Assembly (NCBI RefSeq): GCF_000234095.1
Contig: NZ_JH376799.1
Span: forward strand, 508,537 to 572,536
Origin: Centipeda infelix ATCC 43532
GTDB lineage: Bacteria > Bacillota > Negativicutes > Selenomonadales > Selenomonadaceae
Reading direction: 5' to 3'
DNA: 64,000 nucleotides
Shown piece after piece: positions 2,809-40,208 of this stretch. The notes beneath the pieces were generated by a model. It did not search any database. It was given only the letters and a program-made list of their open reading frames with translations, and was not told the origin of the DNA. The translations under genes were made by a program, and so were the position numbers. The stretch's first letter is position 1. Every line of letters begins with the position of its first letter.

Positions 2809-3702
2809 ATGGATGTGGAGGATCTTCTCGCGCACTGCACGCTCTGTCCACGTCGCTGCGGTGTGAATCGGAATGCGGGCGCACGCGGATTCTGCGGCGC
2901 GGGTCGTACGGTGCGCGTAGCACGCACGATGCTGCACACATGGGAAGAACCGTGTCTCGTCGGTACACATGGGGCAGGTGCGGTCTTCTTCGCCCACTGC
3001 ACACTGCGCTGCATTTACTGTCAGAATCATGCGATCAGTCATGAAGGCAGCGGCACGGAGATAAGCGAGGACGCGCTTGCCGCACGTTTCCGTTCCCTTG
3101 AGCGGGAGGGTGCAGCGACGCTCGATCTTGTGACCCCGACGCACTATACGCCGCAGATTCTCGCCGCGCTCACACAGGCAAGGGCAGATGGGCTGACGCT
3201 CCCCGTGGTCTGGAACACGAGTGGCTATGAGACGACCGAGAACATCACACGCCTTGCGGGTGCGGTGGACATCTACCTGCCCGATCTGAAGTATGCAGCA
3301 GAGGAGAGCGGACGGCTCTATTCGTGTGCGCCCGATTATGCAGCAGTGGTATGGGATGCCCTTGCGGCAATGGTCGCGCAGGTTGGCAGCGTGCGGTTCA
3401 CGCCCGACGGACGGCTTCTCAGCGGTGTGCTCGTACGCCATCTCGTGCTGCCGGGACACCGCCACGAGAGCATCGCGCTCGTGCGGCGGCTGTGGGCGGA
3501 GTTCGGCGATGCGATTCAGCTCAGTCTGATGCGGCAGTACACACCGCTCTACCGCGCAGCCGAGTTCCCGCCGCTGCATCGGCGGCTCACAACGTTTGAG
3601 TATGAGAGTGTGGTCACGGCGGCACGTGAGCTCGGGATGGAACGCGTCTATGTGCAGGGTACGGAGGCGGTAGGGGTGCAGTATGTGCCGGATTTTGTGT
3701 AA
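2809..3702 (+). CDS. radical SAM protein, PflX / pyruvate formate-lyase activating enzyme-like
   Basis: Radical SAM iron-sulfur enzyme of the COG1313 (PflX) group. The cluster motif is CTLRCIYC (around residues 64-71) with the CxxxCxxC spacing, and an N-terminal CTLCPRRCG cysteine motif with a further FCG may hold a second cluster. The rest follows the TIM-barrel pattern of the family (VDIYLPDLKYA, VLVRHLVLPGH). Function in the family is not settled; glycyl-radical activation is assumed by homology. The ATG at 2809 sits directly against the AGGGGGG ribosome site, so a GTG at 2815, which is better spaced, may be the true start. A 27-bp element remnant lies in the leader. Confidence 0.88.
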   Translation: MDVEDLLAHCTLCPRRCGVNRNAGARGFCGAGRTVRVARTMLHTWEEPCLVGTHGAGAVFFAHCTLRCIYCQNHAISHEGSGTEISEDALAARFRSLEREGAATLDLVTPTHYTPQILAALTQARADGLTLPVVWNTSGYETTENITRLAGAVDIYLPDLKYAAEESGRLYSCAPDYAAVVWDALAAMVAQVGSVRFTPDGRLLSGVLVRHLVLPGHRHESIALVRRLWAEFGDAIQLSLMRQYTPLYRAAEFPPLHRRLTTFEYESVVTAARELGMERVYVQGTEAVGVQYVPDFV

Positions 3703-3811
3703 GTTTTGTTTAATAGCGCGGCCCCCCCTCTCGTTACACCCAAACCCCTCAAAGCCCCCGTCACCGCTTGCGCATTTCCCCGCCTCAGCAAGGGAAGGGC
3801 TATACGTACCG

Positions 3812-3990
3812 TTGCACGGAGCAATGTCCCGTAGCAAACCCTAGTGGAGCAAGCGGAACAAAGGACACGTTCTGCCCCCTGCGGATTTTGACCGTTCAAG
3901 CGAAGCGCGTTTGGAATCCGCAGGTATTTAGGCAGATAAGTGTCCGACCGCTTGCGTAACGAGGGTTCTGCGAGGGACTTGCTCCACTTT
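3812..3990. repeat. long imperfect inverted repeat (about 175 bp) between convergent genes
   Basis: The two halves pair across almost the whole stretch: GGAGCAATGTCCC with GGGACTTGCTCC, AACCCTAGTGG with AACGAGGGTT, GCAAGCGG with CCGCTTGC, GGACAC with GTGTCC, and an inner perfect arm CTGCGGATT (3879-3887) with AATCCGCAG (3915-3923). It fills the 314-bp gap between the pflX-like gene and the P-type ATPase. No gene is credible here. It could be a palindromic mobile repeat or a two-way transcript-ending structure. Confidence 0.55.
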
Positions 3991-4016
3991 TTCTTACACC
4001 ATTCCTCCCTTTTCAT

Positions 4017-6683
4017 TCACCCTCTCGCCCGCACAAGCCCCTTCCACACTGCCTTTCTCAGCAGATCCGCAGGGATCATGGTCGCGGCAAGGAGGAAGAC
4101 CAGTGCCCAGCCGCCCGCGTGAATCGGTGTGCAGCTGAACATCCCGCCGATCCATGCGCCGACATCGTGCGGGAGATAGGGCGCATTGATGATTGCCGCC
4201 ATGATGAGGACAATCATCGCCCATACTTTGACAAAGCCGATGTTCTCACTGAGCCCCCGGAAGATGCCGAAGCCCGTAGAACGCACGTTGAAGCCGTTCA
4301 TGAGCGAGGCGAGGACGAAGAGCAGGAAGTACGCCGTATAGTGCTCCGCCTTCCCGTCAAAGACGGCAGCGATGCGTGCATCCGTCAAAAAGAAGAAGCT
4401 TAGGAGGACAAGCCACGTCCCCATGCAGACAATCTGCACGCTCATCGCGGGGCTGATGATGCTCGCGTCGCGACGGCGCGGCTTCTCGTGCATATAGCTC
4501 TCATGCGCCGGCTCGTTGCCGAGCATGATCGCACCGAGGCTGTCCATGACGAGGTTGATAAAGAGGAGATGCGTCACGCGCAGCGGCTCGATGATGCCAA
4601 AGAACGGTGCAATGGCACTGACAACCACCGCCGCGATGTTGATGACGAGCTGGAAGCGGCAAAACTTCAAGATATTGTTGTAGATCGTGCGTCCGTAGAG
4701 AATCGCATCCTTGATGGAGCGGAAATTGTCGTCGAGGATGACGATATCCCCCGCATCCCGCGCCGCCTCCGTCCCGCTGCCCATCGCAAAGCCGACATCG
4801 GCGCGGCGGAGTGCCGGCGAGTCGTTCACACCATCGCCCGTCATGCCGACGACGAGGTTCATCTTCTGCGAGAGACGCACGATGCGCGACTTGTCCGTCG
4901 GCAGTGCGCGTGCAATGACGCGCAGCTGCGGCAGGACACGCTGTACCTCCTCATCCCGCATCTGGGCGAGGTCGCTGCTCGTGAGCACGAGGTCGCCGTC
5001 CGCACGCAGCAGCCCCGCGTCGCGGGCAATTGCAACGGCGGTCTCGCGGCGATCACCCGTCACCATGACGACCTGCACGCCCGCCGCCTGTACCTCCGTG
5101 ATTGCCTCACGCGCCTCGGGGCGCACATCGTCACGAATCGCAGCAAGTCCGATGAGCACGACATCCGTATTGATTGCATTCTTTTGAAAGGGCTGCTCCG
5201 AATACCCGAATGCCAAGACGCGCATCGCACGCGCGGCATAGGCGTTTATTTTTTCGTTCAGCGCATCTGCATCAAAGGGAACGATCGCCCCATCCTGTGC
5301 AAGCGCGTATTTCGCCCGTGCCAGCAGCGCCTCGGGTGCCCCCTTGTAGACGACCGTGCCGCGTGCGGGCAGCTCCGCCTGACTGAATTTATTGGTGGAG
5401 TTAAATGTCTGGCGATGTCCCACGCGGTAGTTTTCATTGATCTGCATCGCACGGTATATTTCTGCACCGAGAAAGCGCATGACCGCCTGATCGGTCGGAT
5501 TTCCGCCGACCACCGCGCCCGCCTCGTCATACATGGCGGCGGAGTTCATGCCGATCGCGAGTTTCAGCTTTTCGTGGAGCACAGGATGCTCCGTGAGCGC
5601 GCCGAGAACCTTTCCATCCGCCGTAAAGAAGTCCACCACCTCAAGCTGTCCGCCCGTGATCGTGCCTGTCTTGTCACTGAAGAGAATGTTCAGCGACCCC
5701 GCCGTCTCGATACCGACCGCGCGGCGCACGAGGACACCGCGTGCGAGCATCCGGCTCGTATTCTGCATCAGCACGAACGAGATCATGAGCGGCAACCCCT
5801 CGGGCACGGCGCAGACGATGATGAGGATCGCGAGCGAGACTGCCTGAATCAGATCCACGAGAATCTGACTCCACCCGAGCATGACATATGCCTCCAGGCC
5901 GCCCGCACGCAGGGCAAAGAACATCATGTAGAGCGAAATGATGACAAGCCCCGAGAGATAGCCGAACGCCGAGATCTGATCGGCGAGCTTCGCGAGCTTC
6001 ACCTGCAGGGGGGAGTCCGGCTCACGCGCCTGCATCTCCGCCGTCATCCGCCCCATCATCGTCTGCATGCCGACGCGGCGCACCTCCATCACGCCCTCGC
6101 CGTCAAAGACCACGCTCCCGCGAAAGAGGGTCGCATCGTCCACGAAGGTGTCGCCCGTAATCTCGGCGGGAAATACATAATGGCTGTCTGCGGGTGTCTT
6201 CGGACACTCCTCCGTCTCCCCGTTGAGTGCCGTATTATTCACGCGGAGTTCTCCCGCGACCAGCATTCCGTCCGCAGGAATCTTGTTGCCGCCCTGCAAG
6301 ATGACATGATCGCCGACCACAATCTCATCCACGGGCAGAACGACCAGCCCGCCGTCGCGACAGACCTTCGCCGTGTCCTTTGCCGTACGTGCACGCAGGG
6401 CGCGGTACTCCGTATCGCTCGCGACATTCGTCCGCGCCGTCACCGTTGCGACGATAATGACGGTCACGATCGTCCCCACCGGCTCATAGATCTCCGCATG
6501 TCCTGCAAAATACATGGCAATCATGAGCGCGACCATGGCGAGCAGGATGCGGATCATCGGATCGCGAAACGTCTCCATGAACGCCTGCCCGAACGTCGTC
6601 CACGCAGGCTCCGGAATCGTGTTCGCACCATATTTCAGACGCGACGCCTCCGCCTCCGCCGATGTCAGTCCCGCAAATTTCAA
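4017..6683 (-). CDS. calcium-translocating-type P-type ATPase (P2 class)
   Basis: 888-residue P-type cation pump. Domains in order: cation-ATPase N-terminal domain, first membrane pair, actuator domain (NGET at about 154-157 in place of the usual TGES), PEGLP in the fourth membrane helix (about 294-298), phosphorylation motif SDKTGT with Asp about 337, nucleotide domain, hinge TGDGVNDSPAL, and six C-terminal membrane helices. The PEGLP motif and layout indicate a SERCA/PMCA-like pump exporting Ca2+ or a similar ion. The start is TTG at 6683, with AAAGGGGAA upstream and no nearby ATG. It follows the PepSY protein by 18 nt and is probably co-transcribed with it. Ion specificity is inferred from family only. 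Confidence 0.93.
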   Translation of the reverse strand: MKFAGLTSAEAEASRLKYGANTIPEPAWTTFGQAFMETFRDPMIRILLAMVALMIAMYFAGHAEIYEPVGTIVTVIIVATVTARTNVASDTEYRALRARTAKDTAKVCRDGGLVVLPVDEIVVGDHVILQGGNKIPADGMLVAGELRVNNTALNGETEECPKTPADSHYVFPAEITGDTFVDDATLFRGSVVFDGEGVMEVRRVGMQTMMGRMTAEMQAREPDSPLQVKLAKLADQISAFGYLSGLVIISLYMMFFALRAGGLEAYVMLGWSQILVDLIQAVSLAILIIVCAVPEGLPLMISFVLMQNTSRMLARGVLVRRAVGIETAGSLNILFSDKTGTITGGQLEVVDFFTADGKVLGALTEHPVLHEKLKLAIGMNSAAMYDEAGAVVGGNPTDQAVMRFLGAEIYRAMQINENYRVGHRQTFNSTNKFSQAELPARGTVVYKGAPEALLARAKYALAQDGAIVPFDADALNEKINAYAARAMRVLAFGYSEQPFQKNAINTDVVLIGLAAIRDDVRPEAREAITEVQAAGVQVVMVTGDRRETAVAIARDAGLLRADGDLVLTSSDLAQMRDEEVQRVLPQLRVIARALPTDKSRIVRLSQKMNLVVGMTGDGVNDSPALRRADVGFAMGSGTEAARDAGDIVILDDNFRSIKDAILYGRTIYNNILKFCRFQLVINIAAVVVSAIAPFFGIIEPLRVTHLLFINLVMDSLGAIMLGNEPAHESYMHEKPRRRDASIISPAMSVQIVCMGTWLVLLSFFFLTDARIAAVFDGKAEHYTAYFLLFVLASLMNGFNVRSTGFGIFRGLSENIGFVKVWAMIVLIMAAIINAPYLPHDVGAWIGGMFSCTPIHAGGWALVFLLAATMIPADLLRKAVWKGLVRARG

Positions 6684-6701
6684 GAATGTTCCCCTTTCCC
6701 C

Positions 6702-7994
6702 TCAGCCACGCACTGCACGAACAAAGTAATAGACGAGATAGGCACTGACGGCGAGAGCAATCCCATCCCCGAGACTGCCATACATCGGTGCAATCAATAC
6801 GATCAAGGTGAGCACAGCGATACGTACGAGCTCCTCCCATGCAGCATTGGTCCGTCTCTTCGCCGCAGCCTCCACAGCTTTGGAGATGCGACTCTGCCAG
6901 CGCGTCAGCCAGAGTACAATTCCCGTGACGATCATCGCCGCCGTCATGAGGATGAGCAGTGCCCAGAATACTTTTTCCGCCGTCAGCTCATGGTTGTGGA
7001 TGTGCAGATTCAAAAAGAACGGCGCCATCGTCAGCCATGCGGGCACGGGCACAGAGAACGGCTCTCCGCCGCCCGCTGCAAGATAGACCTGCGTCCCCAG
7101 TGCAAAATCCGTCGCACGTACCGTCGGCTCTGCAATCTGGAACTGATAGAAATCCTGATGTGCCGTGGGCAGCCGCATGGAAATGACATCCTTTCCGGGA
7201 AACGCCTCCTCTATCCGCACAAGGGCATCCTCGGGCAGAATCCGCTCCGCACGCTGCGCCTCTGCTGCAAAATGCTCTGCCGCAAGCTCCTGCGCCGTGC
7301 GCTGATAGTCCCGCATGCCGACGGAGTAAAGAACGATAAAAACGCCGCTCACGCACATGATGGCAGCCCATGTGCCCGCAAAGACTGACGTGAGCTTATG
7401 CCAGTCCGACCAGAACAGTCGGCTGCTCCGCCTCCGCCGTGTGCCAAAAGCGAGCGTTTTCATCATCGGCAGATAGAGATAAACACCGCTCACGATAGAG
7501 ATCACGGAGAGCACGCACATCGCGGCGAGAAAGTCGCGGCCGCCCTCCTCCAGCCCCAGCCGGACGTGCAGAATATGCATTGTGTGCATGAACTCCTGCA
7601 CCGCCTCGGAACGGTAGACACGCTCCTGTCGGTTGAAGACCGTACCCGTGCGCACCTCGTACATGATCTGCTCTCCGCCCATGCGCATATGGGAGCGCCC
7701 GGCCTTTCCGCCGCGATCCTTGACGAGAAAGTAGAGTGTCCCGTCCTCTCCATCCGGTGTGACCGCCAGAATCTCCTTTGTCGGGAACGCCTGCATCACG
7801 GCTTCTGTCCCCTGCGGCAGACCCGCCCAGATCTCACGCAGAGCCATAGGCTCCCCGCGCGGCGGCAGATTCAGCGTGTTCCACGCGTTGATCTCCCCGC
7901 GAAAGAGCAGCGGCAGCCCCGTTAGGGTCAGCAGCAGCAAAAAGAGCGCGCAGACAAGGCTCACCCACTGATGAATAACATAGATTTTTCGCAT
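6702..7994 (-). CDS. PepSY-associated transmembrane helix protein
   Basis: About 430 residues with four main membrane helices, the first near the N-terminus (HQWVSLVCALFLLLLTLTG), the second and third flanking the WSDWHKLTSVFAG region, and a last pair near the C-terminus. The architecture is that of the PepSY-associated TM family, often linked to iron reduction or siderophore-metal handling at the cytoplasmic membrane. Conserved histidines (HTMHILH, DWHK, NLHIHNHE) lie near helix ends and might bind haem or metal. The start at 7994 is preceded by GGAGGGG at 6 nt; the ATG at 8015 lies before that site. It precedes the P-type ATPase in the same direction. Confidence 0.85.
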   Translation of the reverse strand: MRKIYVIHQWVSLVCALFLLLLTLTGLPLLFRGEINAWNTLNLPPRGEPMALREIWAGLPQGTEAVMQAFPTKEILAVTPDGEDGTLYFLVKDRGGKAGRSHMRMGGEQIMYEVRTGTVFNRQERVYRSEAVQEFMHTMHILHVRLGLEEGGRDFLAAMCVLSVISIVSGVYLYLPMMKTLAFGTRRRRSSRLFWSDWHKLTSVFAGTWAAIMCVSGVFIVLYSVGMRDYQRTAQELAAEHFAAEAQRAERILPEDALVRIEEAFPGKDVISMRLPTAHQDFYQFQIAEPTVRATDFALGTQVYLAAGGGEPFSVPVPAWLTMAPFFLNLHIHNHELTAEKVFWALLILMTAAMIVTGIVLWLTRWQSRISKAVEAAAKRRTNAAWEELVRIAVLTLIVLIAPMYGSLGDGIALAVSAYLVYYFVRAVRG

Positions 7995-8040
7995 TGATTG
8001 CCCCTCCATACGCAAAGATTACCGTCCCCTATCATAACAC

Positions 8041-8079
8041 AAAAGAGGACGGCTGCGCACCGTAAATGCGCAACCGTCC
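8041..8079 (-). terminator. rho-independent terminator after hpf
   Basis: Arms GGACGGCTGCGCA (8047-8059) and TGCGCAACCGTCC (8067-8079) form a 13-bp stem with one mismatch. Read on the minus strand it ends in CTCTTTTG. Confidence 0.8.
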
Positions 8080-8093
8080 CCCAATCTCTTAAA

Positions 8094-8639
8094 TCAGCCC
8101 TCTTCGACCTCGATCAGGGCATACTTTCCATCATTTCGTCCGTAAACCACATTGACCTCCTCCGTCTCCGCGTTGCGGAATACAAAGAAATGATGGTTCA
8201 GCAGATTCATCTGCATGATCGCCTCCTGCACATCCATCGGCTGCAAGGCAAAGCGCTTCGTCTTGACGACGGGGAAGACATCATCCTCCTCCGGCACGGG
8301 CTGAACAAAGGTCTCAACCGCCTCTGCCTTGAACCCGCCGTGACGGAAACGACGCTCCAGCTTCGTCTTCTGCTTGCGAATCTGCCGCTCCAGCTTCTCG
8401 ATCACGAGATCGATGGAGCTGTACATATCCTCCGAACGCTCCTCGCCGCGCAGCAGCACGCCGCGCACGATGGGAGCCGTAACCTCTACCTTGTGATGTT
8501 TCCCCTCCACCGAGAGCAGTACCGAGATCTCGCCGACATTCTCGAAGTACTTTGTAATCTTGCCGACCCGCTTCTCCACGTAGTCGCGCAGCGCCGGTGT
8601 AACCTCAACATTCTTTCCCCGAATCGTGAATGCAGCCAT
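8094..8639 (-). CDS. hpf: ribosome hibernation promoting factor, long form
   Basis: 181-residue protein of the long HPF type found in Firmicutes, which dimerises 70S ribosomes into inactive 100S particles in stationary phase. The N-terminal S30AE domain (FTIRGKNVEVTPALRDYVEK onward) binds the 30S subunit; a linker leads to the C-terminal dimerisation domain from about residue 120 (KTKRFALQPMDVQEAI, LLNHHFFVFRNAETEEVNVV). The start at 8639 has AAAGGAG upstream. A perfect 7-bp hairpin (GGGAGCG at 8664-8670 with CGCTCCC at 8680-8686) lies in the leader about 25 nt before the start and may affect message stability. The gene ends at a strong terminator and is a single-gene unit. Confidence 0.96.
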   Translation of the reverse strand: MAAFTIRGKNVEVTPALRDYVEKRVGKITKYFENVGEISVLLSVEGKHHKVEVTAPIVRGVLLRGEERSEDMYSSIDLVIEKLERQIRKQKTKLERRFRHGGFKAEAVETFVQPVPEEDDVFPVVKTKRFALQPMDVQEAIMQMNLLNHHFFVFRNAETEEVNVVYGRNDGKYALIEVEEG

Positions 8640-8783
8640 GAAACACAGCTCCTTTCTATTCACGGGAGCGTACTTTTTCCGCTCCCCCTTTGTCTATAGT
8701 ATTTCGACACAGACCGAAAAAAACCTGCAAAAGAATTGTACTTTCCCTAAATTCTGATTTTTCCATGTGTATTTGCGCAAATG

Positions 8784-8812
8784 AAAAAGCCCGCTGTGTA
8801 AGCCGGGCTTTT
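8784..8812 (-). terminator. rho-independent terminator after cold-shock gene
   Basis: AAAAAGCCCG (8784-8793) pairs with CGGGCTTTT (8804-8812) around a 10-nt loop. Read on the minus strand the stem runs into TTTTT. It may work in both directions. Confidence 0.75.
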
Positions 8813-8825
8813 CAAACCTTTACAG

Positions 8826-9026
8826 TTATTCCTTTTTGACGACGTTGTCCGCCTGGGGCCCGCGTGCGCCTTCGACAATGTCGAACTCGACTTCCTGTCC
8901 TTCGCTGAGGGTCTTGTATCCCTCGCCCTGGATCGAGGAAAAATGGACGAATACATCATCGCCGTCTGCGCGGGAGATGAAGCCATATCCTTTGTCCGCG
9001 CTGAACCATTTCACTTTGCCCGTCAT
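8826..9026 (-). CDS. cold-shock domain protein (CspA family)
   Basis: 66-residue single OB-fold RNA chaperone. RNP1 (KGYGFI) and RNP2 (VFVHFSSI) are intact, as is the N-terminal GKVKWF. Such proteins melt RNA secondary structure after cold shock or in stationary phase. AAAGGAG precedes the ATG at a good distance. It is a single-gene unit, ending at a terminator. The 136-nt upstream gap to the glycosyltransferase genes holds its leader; no cold-box was recognised with confidence. Confidence 0.96.
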
Positions 9027-9162
9027 ATCGGCTCTCCTTTCATTGAGAGAGAAATCCCGCCGCAGGCAGGATTCTCCAATCTCGCACGTATGCTTCTTCT
9101 TATTATAAGAGCCGTATGATTTACTGTCAATGGTCTATCCCCAAACGAGAGGAAAACATTTG

Positions 9163-11898
9163 TCAGCACTGCGGGAAAAACTTCTCAACGCGTTGGAGGC
9201 GTTCGCGCTCGAGCTCCTCACGCCGTGCAAACATCTCGCGATAGGCGGCGATGTAGTCATCCAGATGCTGCGCAAGGAGGCGATGTTCTGCCACATAGCG
9301 GTACGCATTCTCTGCGAGCGTGCGGCGAAGGTCGGCACGTTTGATGAGGAGATTGAGTTTCTGCGCAAACTCCTTGGGGCTGCGGAAGATCAGCCCCGTC
9401 TCTCCGTCGCGCACACTGCCCGCGTAGACGGTCGGGGAGGCAAGCACCGCAGCACCGTTGCCCGCCGCCTCGATGAACTTCAGATCGGACTTGGCACGGT
9501 TGAACTCTGTGTCGTTCAGCGGCAGGAGGGCGATGTCCGAGGCGTGCAGTTCTTCCATATATCGATCATACGGGGCAACAATGAAGCCATCCTTCATTCC
9601 TCCCGAGAACACCTTTGCCTCGGTTTGGAGCTCTTGGTAGAATCCATGATCGGAAACCACACGGAAATACAGACGGTCGCCATAGCGGCGGATCGCCTCG
9701 TTGATCGCGGGCATCAGCGGTTCCCAGTCCGGACGGCGGTTCAGCGCGCCGAAAAAGATTGTCACACGGTCGCTCGGCATATCATAGCTTCGCTGCGCGG
9801 GCAGCTCCGCAAGCTGATTCTCGAAGAGATAGACATACGGATTATACTGCCGCAGGAAGTCCGCGAGATACTTCGTTGACGTCTGCACGGCGGAAACGGC
9901 ACGGAAGGTGAAGTAGTCATCCTGCACAATTTTCTCTGAAATGATCGGGTGATCGTCAATTTCCTGCAGCAGGATATTGCCACGCCCCGTATGCGATGCT
10001 ATCGTACGGCATGTATGTTCCGTGCACGCCAGGATGGCTCGTTCCATGAGGATCATGCTGTTATGCAGAACCCCAATCTCCTCCAACCCGATCGGACCGT
10101 TTTCTTCCCATGAGCACCCGCTCACCGAGACATCTCCACGCGAAACAAGTCTTTGAATCGGAGCATCGACGCGGATCGGCGCACAGCCATTTAACCGGTT
10201 TGTCAAAAAGATATGGAGTGTGGGAATATCCGTCTCAAATTCCCGCCGCAGTTCAGGAGATACCTGAGGGAGAAGGCCAACAACCCCCGTACGGAACTCC
10301 TGCAATGCAGCCAGAGCTTCCTGATGTTCTTTCTCTTCTGTCAAAAAAACACGTTTTCGCCAGTATTCCTCAATCAGATGCTGCCACTCAATCCCGGCGC
10401 GAACAAGAGCCTCCGGGCTCTGCCCCTCCTGTTCGCCGTGCACGCGAAACAGGCTGAGCGGTCTGCCGAATACAACGGCATTCCCCTTTTCGAGGAGCTC
10501 CAGCCACATTGCACAATCCGATATGGTCAGGTATCCGCGTGACTCCGCCCGCCAATAGTGATGCACGAGATCGCGCCGCCGAAAGAGGACAGCGGAGGGC
10601 TCGCCCAAGAAATTGGTGCAGTTGGCAAGCGTCATGTAGCCGACAAACGATCCACGAAGGCATCCATGGGTACCCAAAACGGACGGCGCATTCTCCCACT
10701 GTCCAAGATACGCCCCGTCTCCGTCAATGACACCGCGTACCGACGTGACAAGCGTGACATCCGATTCCGAGAGGAATGCATCGACCATCCGCGTCGTCTT
10801 ATCCGGCAGGAGGATGTCATCGTCCATGCACCACTGCAGGTACTCGCCCTGCGCGAGGTACTCAAACGGCATAAAGTTCTCCGCCTTCGTCTTCGCCTCT
10901 TTGTTGCGGATATAGCGCACGCGCACATCGTCCCGATACGAGCGCATCAATTCCTCTGTACGGTCGTCCGTTGAGTTGTCGCAGACGATTACCTCGACGT
11001 TCGGATAGGTCTGCGTGAGCGCACTCTCAAGTGTCTCTCGAAAATAGTGCGGACGGTTGTACGTCGGAATCATGATGCTGACAAGCGGGGTCCTCAGAAG
11101 TGCCGCGCGTGCCGTCGCGCGGATGAGCGGGAGATCGTGCGCCCATGCAATCGCGCCCAGTGTATCCTGCAGGATCGTCTCGGGCAGGCCGATATCGATG
11201 CCCCAACGCTCCATGAGGAGCGGACGCGCCGCGGAGCGTGTAAGATCGTAGAGCTCGCAGTTCCCCGCTCTGCGATGTGCGAAATAGACGGGAGCACGCA
11301 GGAGATGAAAGCCCTCGTATTTGAGACGGAAGGAGAGGTCGAGATCCGCACCGCCGCCCGTAAATGCCTCGTCAAATCCCTGCACCGCCCGAAAGGCGGA
11401 GCGGCGCACGAGCAGAGCAAAGTCCTCGAGGAACAGGCTGTCCGTCGGCTGCGTCAGATGACTGCGTACCCACGCAGCCGCATCCTCGCCGTGCGATGCC
11501 ATCTCCTCCGCATTCATGTACTGCCACGAAAATTCCGTACGATTGGAGAAGGGGCCGACGGCGGCGATTGCCGCATCCAGTCGGAGCGTCTTCAGCATCT
11601 TTGCCAGCTCGTCCGCCGTAAGGATAACACCTTCCCGCAGAAAGAGCAGGGTGTTCGCTGCAGCGGATTCCGCCCCTGCATTCCACCGCTCCGCCTGCGA
11701 TTCCCCGACGCAGGACAGCACACGGCACGCAAGTCCGTGCAGCTCCTTCCGCAGGATCTCTCCCTCTTTTTCCACAGCGGGAACGAGCAGCTCGACCTCC
11801 ACGCGCAGAGCGGAGGCAGCGGATACCGCCGCCTCCGCCGTCTCGCGCAGATCCGTCCGATCCTCGCTCGCAGCGAGGATGATCGTGAGTTCACTCAT
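9163..11898 (-). CDS. large multidomain glycosyltransferase (two GT2 regions plus GT-B-like C-terminus)
   Basis: 911 residues. The first 250 residues form a GT2-like region with a degenerate start (LTIILAASEDRTDLRETAEA) and a GGGADLDLSFRLKYEGF acceptor-side motif. A second, canonical GT2 domain starts near residue 272 (VSIMIPTYNRPHYFRETLE) with metal-binding CMDDDI. The last 300 residues (from about 590) resemble a GT-B sugar-nucleotide half with late FIEAAGNGAAVLAS. It starts by a 4-nt ATGA overlap with the TPR gene and is the last gene of the glycosyltransferase run. Acceptor is probably flagellin or a glycan on it, inferred from position only. Confidence 0.85.
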   Translation of the reverse strand: MSELTIILAASEDRTDLRETAEAAVSAASALRVEVELLVPAVEKEGEILRKELHGLACRVLSCVGESQAERWNAGAESAAANTLLFLREGVILTADELAKMLKTLRLDAAIAAVGPFSNRTEFSWQYMNAEEMASHGEDAAAWVRSHLTQPTDSLFLEDFALLVRRSAFRAVQGFDEAFTGGGADLDLSFRLKYEGFHLLRAPVYFAHRRAGNCELYDLTRSAARPLLMERWGIDIGLPETILQDTLGAIAWAHDLPLIRATARAALLRTPLVSIMIPTYNRPHYFRETLESALTQTYPNVEVIVCDNSTDDRTEELMRSYRDDVRVRYIRNKEAKTKAENFMPFEYLAQGEYLQWCMDDDILLPDKTTRMVDAFLSESDVTLVTSVRGVIDGDGAYLGQWENAPSVLGTHGCLRGSFVGYMTLANCTNFLGEPSAVLFRRRDLVHHYWRAESRGYLTISDCAMWLELLEKGNAVVFGRPLSLFRVHGEQEGQSPEALVRAGIEWQHLIEEYWRKRVFLTEEKEHQEALAALQEFRTGVVGLLPQVSPELRREFETDIPTLHIFLTNRLNGCAPIRVDAPIQRLVSRGDVSVSGCSWEENGPIGLEEIGVLHNSMILMERAILACTEHTCRTIASHTGRGNILLQEIDDHPIISEKIVQDDYFTFRAVSAVQTSTKYLADFLRQYNPYVYLFENQLAELPAQRSYDMPSDRVTIFFGALNRRPDWEPLMPAINEAIRRYGDRLYFRVVSDHGFYQELQTEAKVFSGGMKDGFIVAPYDRYMEELHASDIALLPLNDTEFNRAKSDLKFIEAAGNGAAVLASPTVYAGSVRDGETGLIFRSPKEFAQKLNLLIKRADLRRTLAENAYRYVAEHRLLAQHLDDYIAAYREMFARREELERERLQRVEKFFPQC

Positions 11899-35080: not shown

Positions 35081-37192
35081 TCAACGCAGCCGTCGTTGTG
35101 CGAAGATCCCGCCCTCCGGCGTAAGGATGCGGCAGCTGTTCAGCACCACCGCGAGCGTTGCCGTGTTGTGAATCGCCGCCGCCGCAAGCGGGCTGATCGT
35201 GCCAAGCGCACCGAGCAGCATCGCCGACGAGTTGACGAGCAGTGTTGCCTTGAAGTTCTGGTGCACAAGGTGCATTGCCCGCTGACCGATGCGCAGAGCC
35301 TCCACGAGGCGCGTCGGATCCTCCGAGTGGATCGTCACTGCCGAGGATTCCGCTGCGATGTCCGTCTGCCGTCCGCCGAGCGAAACGCCCACATCAGCAA
35401 ACGCGAGTGCAGGAGCATCGTTGATCCCGTCGCCGACCATCATGACCGTGCCGCGCTGGCGCAGCTGGTTGACGTAGCGCGACTTGTCCTCGGGCAGGAT
35501 CTCCGCATGATAGGAGTCCACGTCCATCTCGCGTGCCACATCCGCAGCGACCGCCTTCGCATCCCCTGTCAGCATGACAATCTCGTCCACGCCGCAGCGG
35601 CGCAGCTGGTTCAGCGTCTTTTTCATCTTCGGACGGATCGGATCGTCAATGCCGATAACGCCGATGAGCTTCGTGTCACGCGCCACATAGAGAAGATTCT
35701 TCCCCGTGACTGATGCGATAAGATTTTCCTCGTCCACAACGCCGTTTTCCTGCAAAAAGCGACGGCTGCCGACGCGAATCGTTCCGCCCGCAAATCCCTC
35801 GAAATCCGGCACCTCGGCGAGCATGCCGCGCGCGACAATCGTCTTGGAGGAGCGGTGCTGCGGAGCTTTCCATGCCTGTTCCTCCACATATTTCTGAATC
35901 GCGACCGCAAGCGGATGCACAGAGTGCTCCTCTGCCGATGCCGCAAGCAGGATCACTTCCTTTTCCTCTACGCCTTCCGCCGTACGGATGAACGTGATCT
36001 CGGGCACGCCGACCGTCAGCGTCCCCGTCTTGTCGAGCACTACCGTATCCGTACGTGCGAGTGCCTCCACATAGTTGCCGCCCTTGACGAGAATGCCGCG
36101 CTTTGCCGCCGCCGCAATGGATGCCGACATCGCCGTCGCGGTGGAGAGCTTGAGCCCGCAGGAGAAGTCGATAAAGAGCAGGTTCAGCACCCGTCCCCAG
36201 TCGCGCGTCGCCCCGTAGACAATCGCCGCACCGAGGAAGGACACGGGCACGAGATAGTTCGCCATCTGGTCGGCAAAATTCTGCACAGGCGCACGGCGCG
36301 TCTGCGCCTCCTCGACGAGGTGGACAATATGTGCAAGAGACGTGTCGCCGCCCACCTTCTCCACCGCAATGACGAGCTCACCCGCCTCGACCACGCTGCC
36401 CGCATAGACCGGTGTCCCCTCGTGCTTCATCGCAGGCGCAGATTCACCCGTAATGGATGCCTGCGTCACCGCCGCATCGCCCCGTAGGACACGCCCGTCG
36501 ATCACAATCTTCTCGCCCGCATGTACCGCGACGATATCGCCGGGGCGCACCTCCTCGACGGGCACCTTGCGCTCAACCTCGCCGTCCGGTGTTTCCTCAA
36601 CGAGCCACACATCGCGCTGCCCGAGCGAGAGCAGCCCCGAGATATGTGTGCGTGCCTTCTCCGCGGCATAGCTCGTCAGCATCTCCGCACCGTTGCTGAG
36701 TGCGAGGAGCATGAGACTCGACTCCGGCTTGCCCGCGAGCACCGAGGCGATCACCGCCGTCGTCGTCAGCGTATCTGCATTCGGCTGCCGATCCTTGATC
36801 AGTCCGCCGATCCCCGTCTTGATGAAGTTGCGCGAAATACCGAGGACAAGCAGGGAGCGCAGTACCGTCATCGAGGCAAAGAGCTCGGGGGCACCGCGCC
36901 TGAGCAGCTCCATCGCTGCAAAGCTCGCCAGCGAGATCACCGCATCACGCCGAAACTCCGCCATCTGCTCCGTCGGGGTCACCGACTTCTCCGCCGCCTC
37001 GCGTACAGCACGCTCCGCCGCCGCCAGCATACGGGCGGCAGGAATCGCCCCCTCATGCCAGACATCGACATGAGAGTCGCGTACCGAGGCCGCCGTTACC
37101 GCAGGGAAGCGGCGCATCCGCACCGCCAGACGCAGCGCATCCTCACGCGGGAGTGCCGTGCGCAAGCGGATGCGTGTATGTATGAGCTTCAT
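35081..37192 (-). CDS. P1B-type metal ATPase, FezB-like
   Basis: 703-residue heavy-metal P-type ATPase. A short N-terminal ferredoxin-like domain begins with an Arg-rich HTRIRLR. Then come membrane helices, the actuator motif ITGES (247-251), a membrane metal motif reading SCG (344-346) where most family members have CPC or SPC, the phosphorylation motif DKTGT with Asp 387, and GDGINDAPAL in the hinge. Loss of the proline and the R-x-R N-terminus recall P1B-6 ATPases such as FezB of ferrosome clusters. It is the last gene of a four-gene operon and overlaps the preceding gene by ATGA at 37189-37192; the longer frame to 37351 lies inside that gene. Iron as substrate is inference. Confidence 0.88.
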   Translation of the reverse strand: MKLIHTRIRLRTALPREDALRLAVRMRRFPAVTAASVRDSHVDVWHEGAIPAARMLAAAERAVREAAEKSVTPTEQMAEFRRDAVISLASFAAMELLRRGAPELFASMTVLRSLLVLGISRNFIKTGIGGLIKDRQPNADTLTTTAVIASVLAGKPESSLMLLALSNGAEMLTSYAAEKARTHISGLLSLGQRDVWLVEETPDGEVERKVPVEEVRPGDIVAVHAGEKIVIDGRVLRGDAAVTQASITGESAPAMKHEGTPVYAGSVVEAGELVIAVEKVGGDTSLAHIVHLVEEAQTRRAPVQNFADQMANYLVPVSFLGAAIVYGATRDWGRVLNLLFIDFSCGLKLSTATAMSASIAAAAKRGILVKGGNYVEALARTDTVVLDKTGTLTVGVPEITFIRTAEGVEEKEVILLAASAEEHSVHPLAVAIQKYVEEQAWKAPQHRSSKTIVARGMLAEVPDFEGFAGGTIRVGSRRFLQENGVVDEENLIASVTGKNLLYVARDTKLIGVIGIDDPIRPKMKKTLNQLRRCGVDEIVMLTGDAKAVAADVAREMDVDSYHAEILPEDKSRYVNQLRQRGTVMMVGDGINDAPALAFADVGVSLGGRQTDIAAESSAVTIHSEDPTRLVEALRIGQRAMHLVHQNFKATLLVNSSAMLLGALGTISPLAAAAIHNTATLAVVLNSCRILTPEGGIFAQRRLR

Positions 37193-37908
37193 ACCTTCCA
37201 CCCTCTCATCAGCGTCAGTGCCCACCAGAGCATCTGCGAGCCCGACGGCGTATTGTTCGAGAGCACGAGCTGGCGTATGCCGCGCAGGACGAATACGCCC
37301 GCGACCACCGAGCTCAGATCGAGCGCACCGCCCGTATTTCGCTGAATCCATCCGCTGAAATCGTGCACCGAGCGGCGCACACTCTGCGCGAGTGTCGCGG
37401 GCGGCGGAGCCGTGCGCCCCTCCGCAAAGATCGCCTCCAACCCCTCTGCAAGGACGAGGATATGCGCCTCATCCTCCGGCGCATAGACGAGCAGGATGCT
37501 CCCCGCGAGCGCGTTGGCACGCACCGCCGTCACAAACGGAAGACGCGCAAGCTCCGCCTCAAGCACCTTTGCGAATTCCGCAGTCAGATACGGTGTCCGA
37601 TAGCGCCGCCGTCCGCACGATGCGTGCACACAGATAAAGGGCTTCTCTGCGCTCTCCTGTGTCCGCACCTGTGCAGCCGTTGCCCCGGTCCCACCCGTCC
37701 GACCACCGCCAAAGAGCCCGGCAAGTGCCGAAGCTCCACCGGCAAGACCGCTCGGATCGGACGAGAACATATTCCCCTGCATGAAGCGTCCGCGGCCGCC
37801 GCCCATGCCCTGTGCAAAGGACGCGCCGCCGCTTCCCGAACCACCGAGTGTCTGGCGCAGCATATTTGCGATCGACGCGCCAAGCATCAGCCCTGAAACA
37901 TAGTTCAT
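37189..37908 (-). CDS. Gly-rich membrane protein with HMA-like domain
   Basis: 239 residues. A Gly/Ala/Leu-rich N-terminal third (LGGSGSGGASFAQGMGGG, then LAGGASALAGLFGGG), then an HMA2-like ferredoxin-fold domain from about 90 opening with CGRRRYRTPYL, and a C-terminal hydrophobic stretch (SSVVAGVFVLRGIRQLVL). Lies between the small HMA2 protein and the ATPase, joined to both by 4-nt ATGA overlaps. Gly/Leu-rich repeats also occur in magnetosome proteins, but that similarity may be superficial. Function unknown; probably metal binding or organelle-membrane structure in the same system. Confidence 0.75.
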   Translation of the reverse strand: MNYVSGLMLGASIANMLRQTLGGSGSGGASFAQGMGGGRGRFMQGNMFSSDPSGLAGGASALAGLFGGGRTGGTGATAAQVRTQESAEKPFICVHASCGRRRYRTPYLTAEFAKVLEAELARLPFVTAVRANALAGSILLVYAPEDEAHILVLAEGLEAIFAEGRTAPPPATLAQSVRRSVHDFSGWIQRNTGGALDLSSVVAGVFVLRGIRQLVLSNNTPSGSQMLWWALTLMRGWKV

Positions 37909-38216
37909 GACGCCTTCCTCCTCGCATGGGTACGCATATAGTCCTCCACGCGGCGCAGCTGGGCGTTCGCGCGCAGACGCTCCGGCTCATATGTGATGAG
38001 AATTGACCCCGTCTCGATATTCGTCTCCACGCGCTCAATCTCCGCAAGCTTTCCGAGACGTGCCTGTACCTCCGCCTCGAGCGCCGCATTGTTCACGAGC
38101 TGCTTGCTGTAGAGGCGCACGCGCCCCGGCATATAAGATGCAATGTCCGTCGTGCGGACGAATACATCCATCGCCGACTGCGGTATCGCATTTTTGATCG
38201 TATCGAAAATATTCAT
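37905..38216 (-). CDS. HMA2-type domain protein
   Basis: 103 residues with one ferredoxin-like domain. The first strand carries MPGRVRLYSKQL, the R-x-R motif that the next two proteins also have in the form GRRRYR and TRIRLR. The classic CxxC metal site of HMA domains is absent. Overlaps the next gene by ATGA. Similar small proteins accompany P1B ATPases in fez-type clusters (FezC-like), so a role in the same metal-handling system is likely. Confidence 0.78.
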   Translation of the reverse strand: MNIFDTIKNAIPQSAMDVFVRTTDIASYMPGRVRLYSKQLVNNAALEAEVQARLGKLAEIERVETNIETGSILITYEPERLRANAQLRRVEDYMRTHARRKAS

Positions 38217-38298
38217 GGGAAACTCGTTTCCTCCCTTTCTTTTTATGTCTATTTACGTCTATGATGTTCTGCAGCACCTGTACTGCAGTATGGTTTTT

Positions 38299-38334
38299 GA
38301 AAAAAGGGCTGTGCGCAATGCCGCGCAACAGCCC
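38299..38334 (-). terminator. strong hairpin with T-run inside the operon
   Basis: GGGCTGTGCGC (38306-38316) pairs with GCGCAACAGCCC (38323-38334) with one bulged base; the minus-strand tail is TTTTTT. It follows the small membrane protein gene and the 162-bp element, ahead of the HMA2 gene, so it would attenuate the three downstream genes. Confidence 0.75.
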
Positions 38335-38359
38335 CGAGCCCAGTGGAACCCTCGCTTAC

Positions 38360-38521
38360 GGAAGCACTGATAAATTCAGCCACGCCATCTTAGCGCATCT
38401 TTTTTGCCCGCTTTTCGTTAGCAAATCCTCCACATAGCTTTGGCTATGCGTCCGGTTTGCTGCCTCAATCGGACAGAAAAACCTGTGCCAATCTGACGGA
38501 CTTCATTTTATCAGCGATTCC
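38360..38521. repeat. 162-bp MITE-like element with TTAC target duplication
   Basis: Ends GGAAGCACTGATAAA (left) and the complement of TTTATCAGCGATTCC (right) match at 13 of 15 positions as terminal inverted repeats. TTAC flanks both sides (38356-38359 and 38522-38525). The inside has no credible gene and contains a small hairpin (CATAGC-TTT-GGCTATG). A non-autonomous element mobilised by an unseen transposase is likely. The right-hand TTAC contains the stop codon of the next gene. Confidence 0.8.
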
Positions 38522-38722
38522 TTACTTCTCCGATGCAGACTGCGCCGCAATCAGATCCTCAAGCTCCTCCTTCTGACGCTGGAGCTCCGCCAGCGAAAGA
38601 TCCGCCTGACCTGCCTCAAGAGCTGCAAGCTGCTGCGTGCGCTCCTGCATGAAGCGGTAGCCAAAAATACCGGCAACCGCACCAACGGCAAGACCAATCC
38701 AGAAATCTGTCTTCGAGAACAT
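38522..38722 (-). CDS. small single-span membrane protein, first gene of metal operon
   Basis: 66 residues. A glycine-rich membrane helix (DFWIGLAVGAVAGIFGYRF) lies near the N-terminus, followed by a charged helical tail (LAELQRQKEELEDLIAAQSA). GAGGAGGAATT precedes the ATG. Small hydrophobic proteins open fez-type clusters (FezA), and DUF6110-like proteins sit beside metal ATPases in Clostridia; this protein fits either by shape only. The stop codon is within the target duplication of the 162-bp element, so the original C-terminus may have been as it is now. Confidence 0.75.
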   Translation of the reverse strand: MFSKTDFWIGLAVGAVAGIFGYRFMQERTQQLAALEAGQADLSLAELQRQKEELEDLIAAQSASEK

Positions 38723-38914: not shown

Positions 38915-38941
38915 GTTATTCTCAGTATATGTGAGAATAAC
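38915..38941. promoter_or_regulatory. operator-like perfect dyad over minus-strand -10 box
   Basis: GTTATTCTCA, 7 nt, TGAGAATAAC: a perfect 10-bp inverted repeat. It covers the -10 box of the promoter at 38924-38952. A repressor bound here would block transcription of the metal operon. Confidence 0.7.
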
Positions 38942-38952
38942 GAACATGTCAA
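38924..38952 (-). promoter_or_regulatory. sigma-A-type promoter for metal-ATPase operon
   Basis: Minus-strand reading TTGACA (38947-38952), exactly 17 nt, TATACT (38924-38929). Near-consensus. Confidence 0.8.
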
Positions 38953-38979: not shown

Positions 38980-39009
38980 TTGACATCATACTCATCTAAA
39001 TATCATTAT
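38980..39009 (+). promoter_or_regulatory. divergent promoter for YibE/F gene
   Basis: TTGACA (38980-38985), 18 nt, CATTAT (39004-39009). Its TTGACA and that of the opposite promoter form a 10-bp inverted repeat (38946-38955 with 38977-38986). Confidence 0.5.
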
Positions 39010-39025
39010 CACTGTGTATGATAAT
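39005..39025. promoter_or_regulatory. operator-like dyad over plus-strand -10 box
   Basis: ATTATCA, 7 nt, TGATAAT: perfect 7-bp inverted repeat with the same spacer length and near-identical half-sites as the dyad at 38915. TGATAAT is also a Fur-type half-site. Confidence 0.6.
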
Positions 39026-39062
39026 TCCATCCATCAAAGCATTCCACGAAAGGCTGACCATC

Positions 39063-40208
39063 ATGAAGATTCATCCGCGGCGCTTCGTCCGCTTCCTTTC
39101 CATATGTCTTATCCTTGGCGTAGTCCTCTATGTCCTCACGCATTTACCCGCCGGCGAGACCGGCGATCCGCCGACGTACAAGGCAGAGGTTCTGAGCGTC
39201 ATGGAGACAGAGAACGAGATCAAGGCATTCGCTCCCGGCAGCATCCAGTACGAGGTGCACCTGCGCATAGATTCAGGACCTGCGGAGGGCACAGAGGCGA
39301 CGATCATACATCGGACACTGAACAATCCCGCCTTTGACATCCATCCGCAGGAGGGCGAGAACATCATCATCCGTGCGGAGAACGACAGCTATGCCATCGT
39401 CGACTATGACCGCCTCCCCGCAATGTTTGCACTATTCCTCGGCTTTGCCGCGCTTCTCATATGCTTTGGCGGCATGACGGGTGCAAAGGCACTCCTCGTT
39501 CTCCTCTTTGCCGTCCTGCTCATTGCAAAGGGTCTCATCGCTCTCATTCTCTTTGCGCCCTCACACATTCTCCTGTGGACCATCCTCATCGGTGCAGCCA
39601 TCACGCTCGCGACCCAGCTCATCGTCAACGGCCGCAACGTCAAATCAGCGGGAGCCATCATCGGAACGATCGGCGGTATCCTCATCGCAAGTCTCGTCGC
39701 CGTACTTGCCATCCACTGCACCTATCTCACAGGTGTCTCCGAGGAACAGGCGGGCATGCTCAAAGTGCTCTATTTCAAGGACGTAGACTTTCGTGAGCTG
39801 CTGTTCTCCGGCATTGTGCTCGGTGCGCTTGGCGCGGTTATGGACGTAGCGGTATCGATTGCCTCCGCCCAGTACGAGATGAAGCAGCTCGCCCCCAAGA
39901 CGAAATTTCAGGCACTCGTCACCTCGGGGCTGAATGTCGGCCGCGATGTCATGGGCACCATGGCGAACACCCTTGTCCTTGCCTACATCGGCGGTGCACT
40001 GCCCCTCATCCTCCTCATCTCCGCACAGCCTGACCTCCCGCTGCTGCACGTCATGAACCTCAACATGATCGCAACCGAAGTCGTACGCTCCCTCATCGGC
40101 AGCATCGGCCTCCTCTGTGCCATTCCCATCACCGCCTACGCCACCGCCTTTCTCATCACCATCCGCCCGCGGCGCAAAAAAAGGGAGCAGCTGCACGAAA
40201 GCACATAA
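39063..40208 (+). CDS. YibE/F family membrane protein
   Basis: About 381 residues. An N-terminal membrane anchor, an extracytoplasmic beta-rich part (60-125), then seven or so membrane helices from PAMFALFLGFAALLICFGGM onward, including the family motif GALGAVMDVAVSIASA and NVGRDVMGTMANTLVLAYIG. Function is unknown; the family is widespread in Firmicutes. The ATG at 39063 has AAAGG upstream; an in-frame ATG at 39018 lies inside the dyad and is unlikely. Divergent from the metal-ATPase operon, with matching dyads at both promoters, so the two may share regulation. Confidence 0.88.
   Translation: MKIHPRRFVRFLSICLILGVVLYVLTHLPAGETGDPPTYKAEVLSVMETENEIKAFAPGSIQYEVHLRIDSGPAEGTEATIIHRTLNNPAFDIHPQEGENIIIRAENDSYAIVDYDRLPAMFALFLGFAALLICFGGMTGAKALLVLLFAVLLIAKGLIALILFAPSHILLWTILIGAAITLATQLIVNGRNVKSAGAIIGTIGGILIASLVAVLAIHCTYLTGVSEEQAGMLKVLYFKDVDFRELLFSGIVLGALGAVMDVAVSIASAQYEMKQLAPKTKFQALVTSGLNVGRDVMGTMANTLVLAYIGGALPLILLISAQPDLPLLHVMNLNMIATEVVRSLIGSIGLLCAIPITAYATAFLITIRPRRKKREQLHEST

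Follow-up and report, generated by a model that had tools for sequence, protein, structure and literature searches.

A putative fez-type operon with a distinct class of P1B-type ATPase in Centipeda infelix

In Clostridioides difficile, FezA and FezB are reported to be needed for the formation of ferrosomes and to be repressed by Fur (PMC12574912). The fezAB genes are given as CD630_05910-05920 (PMC11651100), and an iron-regulation table labels these 'ATPase' and 'Hypothetical protein' (PMC6311696). In the fez type of D. magneticus and Desulfurispirillum, a putative Fe(II) pump is described as clustered with small membrane proteins, and FezC as a DUF4405-like haem-b cytochrome (PMC11334425). 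Here we compare these systems with a four-gene operon in a stretch of 64,000 nucleotides from Centipeda infelix ATCC 43532 (contig NZ_JH376799.1), referred to below as the window, in whose numbering positions are given. We consider it probable, with moderate confidence, that this operon serves iron storage and is of the fez type, representing a distinct class named SCG after the membrane motif of its ATPase.

The four genes are on the minus strand at 35081-38722, in the place and order proposed by the first-pass annotation of the window, and encode proteins of 66, 103, 239 and 703 amino acids (aa):

38522..38722, minus strand: 66-aa membrane protein whose family is a remote relative of FezA (DUF6110), by profile comparison; the protein itself has no match to DUF6110 in Pfam
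37905..38216, minus strand: 103-aa HMA_2 protein with PGRVR replacing CxxC, by HMA_2 match and alignment
37189..37908, minus strand: 239-aa HMA_2 protein with CGRRR and a glycine-rich N-terminus, by HMA_2 match and alignment
35081..37192, minus strand: 703-aa P1B-type ATPase of the SCG class, sister to the Clostridioides FezB clade, by Pfam, NCBIfam and tree
36155..36163, minus strand: SCG membrane motif of the ATPase, by translation (FIDFSCGLKL, codons 36163-36155)

As start of the ATPase we chose the ATG at 37192, where it shares bases with the stop of the 239-aa gene (the longest open reading frame, ORF, begins at 37351); an overlap of this kind also joins the 103-aa and 239-aa genes. Both of their products match HMA_2 (PF19991) above its cut-off (E 1.2e-14 for the 103-aa and 8.9e-20 for the 239-aa protein), and these were the two matches found at E up to 0.001 in a search of the whole genome. 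The 703-aa protein has the Pfam E1-E2_ATPase and HAD hydrolase domains, matches NCBIfam TIGR01525 ('heavy metal translocating P-type ATPase'), and carries RIRLR close to its N-terminus. The earlier identification of an HMA2-type protein with R-x-R and of a P1B ATPase with SCG in the membrane motif is therefore confirmed.

The small protein can be connected to FezA at the level of families. A FezA profile built from relatives at loci of the SCA class only (the class of Clostridioides FezB, see below) was searched against 2355 ORFs and matched 15 of the 54 small proteins from SCG loci at E<1e-3, some genes being counted twice via overlapping loci, and the best other ORF had an E of 0.82. The reverse profile, from the SCG small proteins, matched SCA-locus members at 7.5e-5 and 0.0013, and profile-profile comparison of the SCG small family with FezA gave 95.2% (E 2.7e-8) in local and 85.0% in global alignment. 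A glycine-rich membrane segment is common to the two families, as is an acidic helix at the C-terminus (KEELEDLIA; QENVEDILAEA). These comparisons point to a remote relationship between the 66-aa family and FezA, and to this extent the FezA part of the earlier fez reading stands. At two loci of the SCA class (L183, 4949-5215; L279, 4136-4417), a Fur-family gene fragment and a FeoA gene are present close upstream of the FezA-like gene.

The FezB used for comparison was recognized by its neighbours. In the family of Clostridioides mangenotii, six genomes have a single HMA_2 match within a 707-aa frame, and the ATPase at all six such loci is 699 aa long and contains GRIRF and DFSCALKLS (SCA). At one of these (L321), the 699-aa ATPase adjoins a 131-aa DUF6110 protein, and CotJB and manganese catalase are encoded a few genes off. 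Because these neighbours match CD0597 (cotF) and CD0598 (cotCB, manganese catalase) as described for C. difficile (PMC3789822), we take L321 for fezBA of C. difficile or of a close relative, its species being presumed.

Pumps were assigned here by their motifs to classes that we name SCG, SCA, RxR-CPC, Zn-type and Cu-type. In a first tree of 50 rows (without L042 and L043), L244, which has another motif, grouped on the SCA side. The careful tree, from which long or odd rows (L244, L149, L157, L245, L094, L327, L203, L154, L093) were dropped and to which two were added, comprises 43 pumps. In it, the 14 SCG rows (100/99) and the 13 SCA rows including Clostridioides FezB (100/100) are united by a branch with 100/98 support, on the other side of which are the RxR-CPC, Zn-type and Cu-type pumps. 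The window ATPase falls beside, not inside, the SCA clade; since the tree has no outgroup, 'sister' assumes a root among the other pumps, and neither the FezB sequences from D. magneticus, R. palustris and S. putrefaciens nor Mn or Co exporters of known function are among its rows. RxR pumps with CPCAT occur in the Desulfovibrio family (L260, L261, L263-L265, L267, L268, L270, L278), and in several of these another P1B pump is encoded about 4 kb off; they are another RxR class, with no clear name.

The tree bears directly on the possibility that the ATPase exports Zn/Cd or Cu and has atypical helper proteins. The window ATPase scores above the cut-off of the 'cadmium family' TIGR01512 (393 vs 313.5), as such an exporter would, although Clostridioides FezB is likewise above it. 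By contrast, the features of P1B-2 Zn/Cd pumps are missing, with SCG replacing CPC, and a clade uniting SCG with the Zn-type pumps is rejected (p 0.0007, approximately unbiased test). We therefore rejected the Zn/Cd reading, and a Zn/Cd or Cu exporter is hardly credible. Grouping with Zn exporters, one of the outcomes named in the first-pass annotation as counting against a fez-like operon, did not occur; the ATPase groups instead with the FezB clade.

A pump for another metal (Mn, Co or Ni) that is only incidentally regulated by iron, like the RxR-CPC pumps, is better placed, as a clade uniting SCG with RxR-CPC is not rejected (p 0.076). However, the best tree joins SCG with the FezB clade, the operator described below is common to Fe(II) uptake genes (feoAB), and feoB adjoins the cluster of a relative. 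SCG may be the P1B-6 motif. A review table gives Fe(II) for P1B-6 (PMC7558416), a subgroup to which the window ATPase may belong. Taken together, a pump for another metal appears improbable.

Both HMA_2 proteins differ from metal-binding HMA domains, which carry CxxC at the position where GRxR is found here. GRxR is present in all 26 aligned homologues of the 103-aa protein and in 25 of the 26 of the 239-aa protein (the other has NRIR). The earlier description of the latter as a Gly-rich protein with the same R-x-R/HMA-like domain holds for the domain and the motif, whereas the glycine-rich stretch varies among homologues, with 19-32% Gly in the N-terminus of 7/26 and 3-14% in 19/26. A single-sequence structure prediction for the 103-aa protein had low confidence (predicted local distance difference test 66), and many of the top Foldseek matches of this model were HMA domains, the best with a weak E of 0.056.

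An N-terminal R-x-R/K is a feature of fez ATPases. Among the 40 loci kept for counting (9 lacking the anchor motif were excluded), it was found in 25, comprising all 13 of the genus (the window and 12/12 same-genus loci), 2/16 other loci of the family and class, and 10/11 more distant ones, the exception being L079. The R-x-R that the first-pass annotation placed at the ATPase N-terminus is thus a property of the window and its whole genus, but is not conserved in sister genera. As the motif is nearly universal in the HMA_2 proteins, the arginine motif appears to be mainly a property of the helper proteins.

Upstream of the small gene, the following features were found:

38924..38952, minus strand: promoter-like TTGACA-17-TATACT, 11/12 matches (scan with 4 promoter-like sites vs 1.5 expected in shuffles)
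38915..38941, strand not assigned: perfect 27-bp palindrome that covers the -10 box and includes a Fur-type operator at 38918-38938 (sequence, alignment, pattern search)
39005..39025, strand not assigned: second Fur-type operator, at a divergent YibE/F-like gene (pattern search)

In the 2.4-Mb genome, the operator pattern ATTNTCA-N7-TGANAAT is matched perfectly at three sites, namely at feoAB, at the operon promoter, and 87 bp off at the YibE/F-like gene. With one mismatch allowed, there are 15 sites vs 1 in the reversed control. One of the 12 one-mismatch sites is 62 bp upstream of a TonB-dependent receptor gene, another about 0.2 kb before a Fur-family gene, and the remaining ten sit within frames and are apparently fortuitous; mechanically called ORFs of one strand overlie the Fur-gene site and the operon site as well. 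Across 12 aligned upstream regions (without L069), the promoter and the palindrome core are retained in 11, the right arm mostly with one base altered, and both are degenerate in L070; the TGATAATGATAT part of the second operator site is retained in 8 of the 12. In another genus of the family, two genomes (G005, G034) have 7-1-7 Fur boxes with 13/14 matches before the cluster, a score that 0/500 shuffles reach in each case, and other loci have weaker boxes or none; Clostridioides fez itself has 10 to 12 of 14.

These operators apparently reflect control by Fur. Because a Fur-type operator common to feoAB covers the -10 box, the operon is predicted to be expressed in iron starvation, as C. difficile fez is reported to be, and not in iron excess as an exporter would be. 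This prediction matters for the main alternative, in which the ATPase is an Fe(II) exporter of the plasma membrane that, assisted by the HMA_2 proteins, moves iron to the periplasm or the outside with no organelle involved. The pump is of the P1B type, the sequence proves no compartment, and the helper proteins are of just two to three small kinds, all of which would suit such an exporter. However, export would serve little purpose for a protein produced in starvation, and a FezA-like partner is conserved alongside. We regard Fe(II) export as unlikely, if still deserving serious thought.

The divergent YibE/F-like gene (PF07907; region 39005-40208) has its own perfect operator over a promoter-like match, and faces the operon in 11/12 same-genus loci; among the 40 loci searched, it was so placed at none outside the genus. 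Its product may be part of the iron response of the genus.

The cluster is widespread in the relatives of C. infelix. At E below 1e-100, a cut-off to be compared with 5e-87 for the best listed match to any other P1B pump, the ATPase class was found in 97/151 genomes of the family, with all 14 genomes of the genus included; when the phylum was sampled, 13/299 genomes matched the ATPase at better than 1e-150, and ten of these belong to the window's class. All 12/12 same-genus loci (L059-L070) share the order small protein, HMA_2, HMA_2, ATPase, as do 16 further ones among the 40 loci searched, which is more than chance. The same genes are rearranged in L079 and L082, and L080 and L040 yielded no second HMA_2 gene in this search. 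In G349, the order is HMA_2, HMA_2, ATPase, HMA_2, small protein, and in G048 the small gene is at the end. The same modules occur in Priestia, Fusobacterium (in Fusobacterium vincentii with an ATPase in the SCG clade of the tree), a metagenome-assembled genome of Bacteroidales, and Peptostreptococcaceae. A scan of genome contigs, in which a generic pattern pulled in mainly ordinary P-type ATPases, gave 584 relatives, of which 80 loci were retained; 31 of these 80 were checked for the motif and only L146 was of the SCG class.

The SCG cluster of G509 is directly preceded by feoB; we rejected an assignment of G509 to C. difficile, as its RpoB is clearly unlike chain 7l7b_C, which we take to be from that species. 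In L285 (Peptostreptococcaceae; 3244-9431), feoB, two HMA_2 genes, an SCG ATPase, a third RxR gene and a small gene follow one another in this order on one strand, a putative uptake-and-storage operon. In the family of C. mangenotii, the SCG class is present in 14/71 genomes (L246-L259), the SCA class in 6/71 (L321-L326), and both together in 0; these are too few and too closely related to prove that the two are exchangeable.

Between the small gene and the rest of the operon are two further features:

38306..38335, minus strand: terminator-like hairpin separating the small gene from the HMA_2 gene (intergenic comparison and folding; absent from the list of the consensus scan)
38360..38521, strand not assigned: dispersed repeat, roughly 0.16 kb long, whose terminal inverted repeats are imperfect (13/15), inserted in the operon (repeat comparison)

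In the 12 gaps compared (that of L066 is cut off), the hairpin and a T-run stand between the small gene and the HMA_2 and ATPase genes, and in the three gaps tested the hairpin folds better than shuffles. Because the hairpin follows the small gene, the small protein may be made in excess. The repeat resembles a miniature inverted-repeat transposable element. At least five other stretches examined from this genome carry copies with 80-91% identity, and in L144 the copy is placed between the operator site and the Fur-family gene; copies are also present in relatives (L061, L065, partly L085), and a search of plasmids found none. As the insertion adjoins the hairpin, it might be that the two sever the three downstream genes from the promoter and that the operon is broken in this strain. 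Yet all four frames are open, the hairpin is also found in relatives without the insertion, and the ATPase is 98% identical to that of its nearest relative, making a broken operon very improbable.

Several observations speak against a fez-type operon, in addition to the union with RxR-CPC pumps that the tree does not reject. The motif of the FezB identified here is SCA vs SCG in the window ATPase, and the RxR of the ATPase is gone in 14/16 other loci of the family and class. The protein of L059, near-identical to the window's and of the same length, scores just 0.0018 against the FezA profile. Neither the operator nor a clear Fur box was seen before the SCG clusters of Priestia, Fusobacterium, G461, G349, G235 and G007, in a scan that also missed a clear box at the Clostridioides locus G452. 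In the window, repeat and hairpin part the first gene from the other three. The four operon proteins gave no match to DUF4405 (FezC), and we found no experiment on any SCG member. The FezA/FezC/FezB content proposed earlier is therefore not retained as worded, and we rejected this naming for the operon, whose ATPase is sister to the FezB clade. FezC was not seen in the ORF list of L321, beside Clostridioides fezAB, either, and is therefore not universal in fez clusters. What endures of the fez-like reading is the grouping of the ATPase with the FezB clade, the relation of the small protein to FezA, and the Fur-type operator.

The conserved cluster, and an operator that it shares with feoAB, a TonB-receptor gene and a Fur-family gene, are observed at the sequence level. 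The metal, the direction of transport, the compartment and the roles of the proteins are assigned by analogy with C. difficile and D. magneticus, as reported for these organisms (PMC11334425, PMC12574912, PMC11533511, PMC12748827), and the same analogy would extend to the formation of an organelle. There is a good probability that the operon works like a fez system, and the most likely function of the ATPase would be to load Fe(II) into membrane-bound stores. In iron starvation, Fur would leave the operator and the genes would be expressed. The FezA-like protein, which would be needed for the compartment, and the ATPase might then set up a patch or vesicle of the inner membrane, while the HMA_2 proteins might act as adaptors that dock via their arginines to the ATPase or to the iron supply. 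Once iron returns, the ATPase would pump Fe(II) from the cytosol into membrane-bound granules, where it might be stored together with phosphate, as C. difficile ferrosomes are reported to do. In the formal sense the operon may or may not be a fez system, because the ATPase is in a neighbouring clade and no tested SCG member was found.

More broadly, we tentatively hypothesize, at somewhat less than even chance, that SCG clusters are a second ferrosome machinery, in which a FezA-like protein and a FezB-like pump are combined with GRxR HMA_2 adaptors replacing FezC, and which spans the window's class, Fusobacteriota, Bacteroidota, other Bacillota and Priestia plasmids. None of the papers listed in a literature search on ferrosomes in Negativicutes, Selenomonas, Fusobacterium and Megamonas contained the word, and none listed in a general search on ferrosomes was on these groups by its title; mention elsewhere in the literature is possible. 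If the hypothesis is true, iron-storage organelles reach the window's group and several others, and many anaerobes in which iron organelles are so far unknown store iron in this way. The core of pump and FezA would then be separable from accessory proteins, and a function would be given to genes annotated just as 'HMA2 domain-containing protein' or 'cation-translocating P-type ATPase'.

Compared with the known systems, the operon resembles C. difficile fezAB in having a FezA-like small membrane protein beside a P1B-type ATPase with RxR, and in its predicted regulation, as fezAB is reported to be Fur-repressed (PMC12574912, PMC11651100). Unlike C. difficile FezB, the window ATPase belongs to a separate clade with its own motif, and the C. 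difficile-type locus L321 is without the two adjacent HMA_2 genes. With the fez type of D. magneticus and Desulfurispirillum, it shares a putative Fe(II) pump and small membrane proteins, whereas their FezC has no counterpart in the window operon. The cluster on Priestia megaterium pBM400 (BMQ_RS25875-25895), annotated as three 'HMA2 domain-containing protein', 'cation-translocating P-type ATPase' and 'hypothetical protein', has the same modules and an ATPase of the same clade, and its small gene is in one family with the window's; it differs in a third HMA_2 gene and the small gene following the ATPase, and in an ATPase identity of 40%. P1B exporters of the ZntA/CopA type share the P-type ATPase core, but carry the CPC motif and belong to a different clade from the window ATPase.

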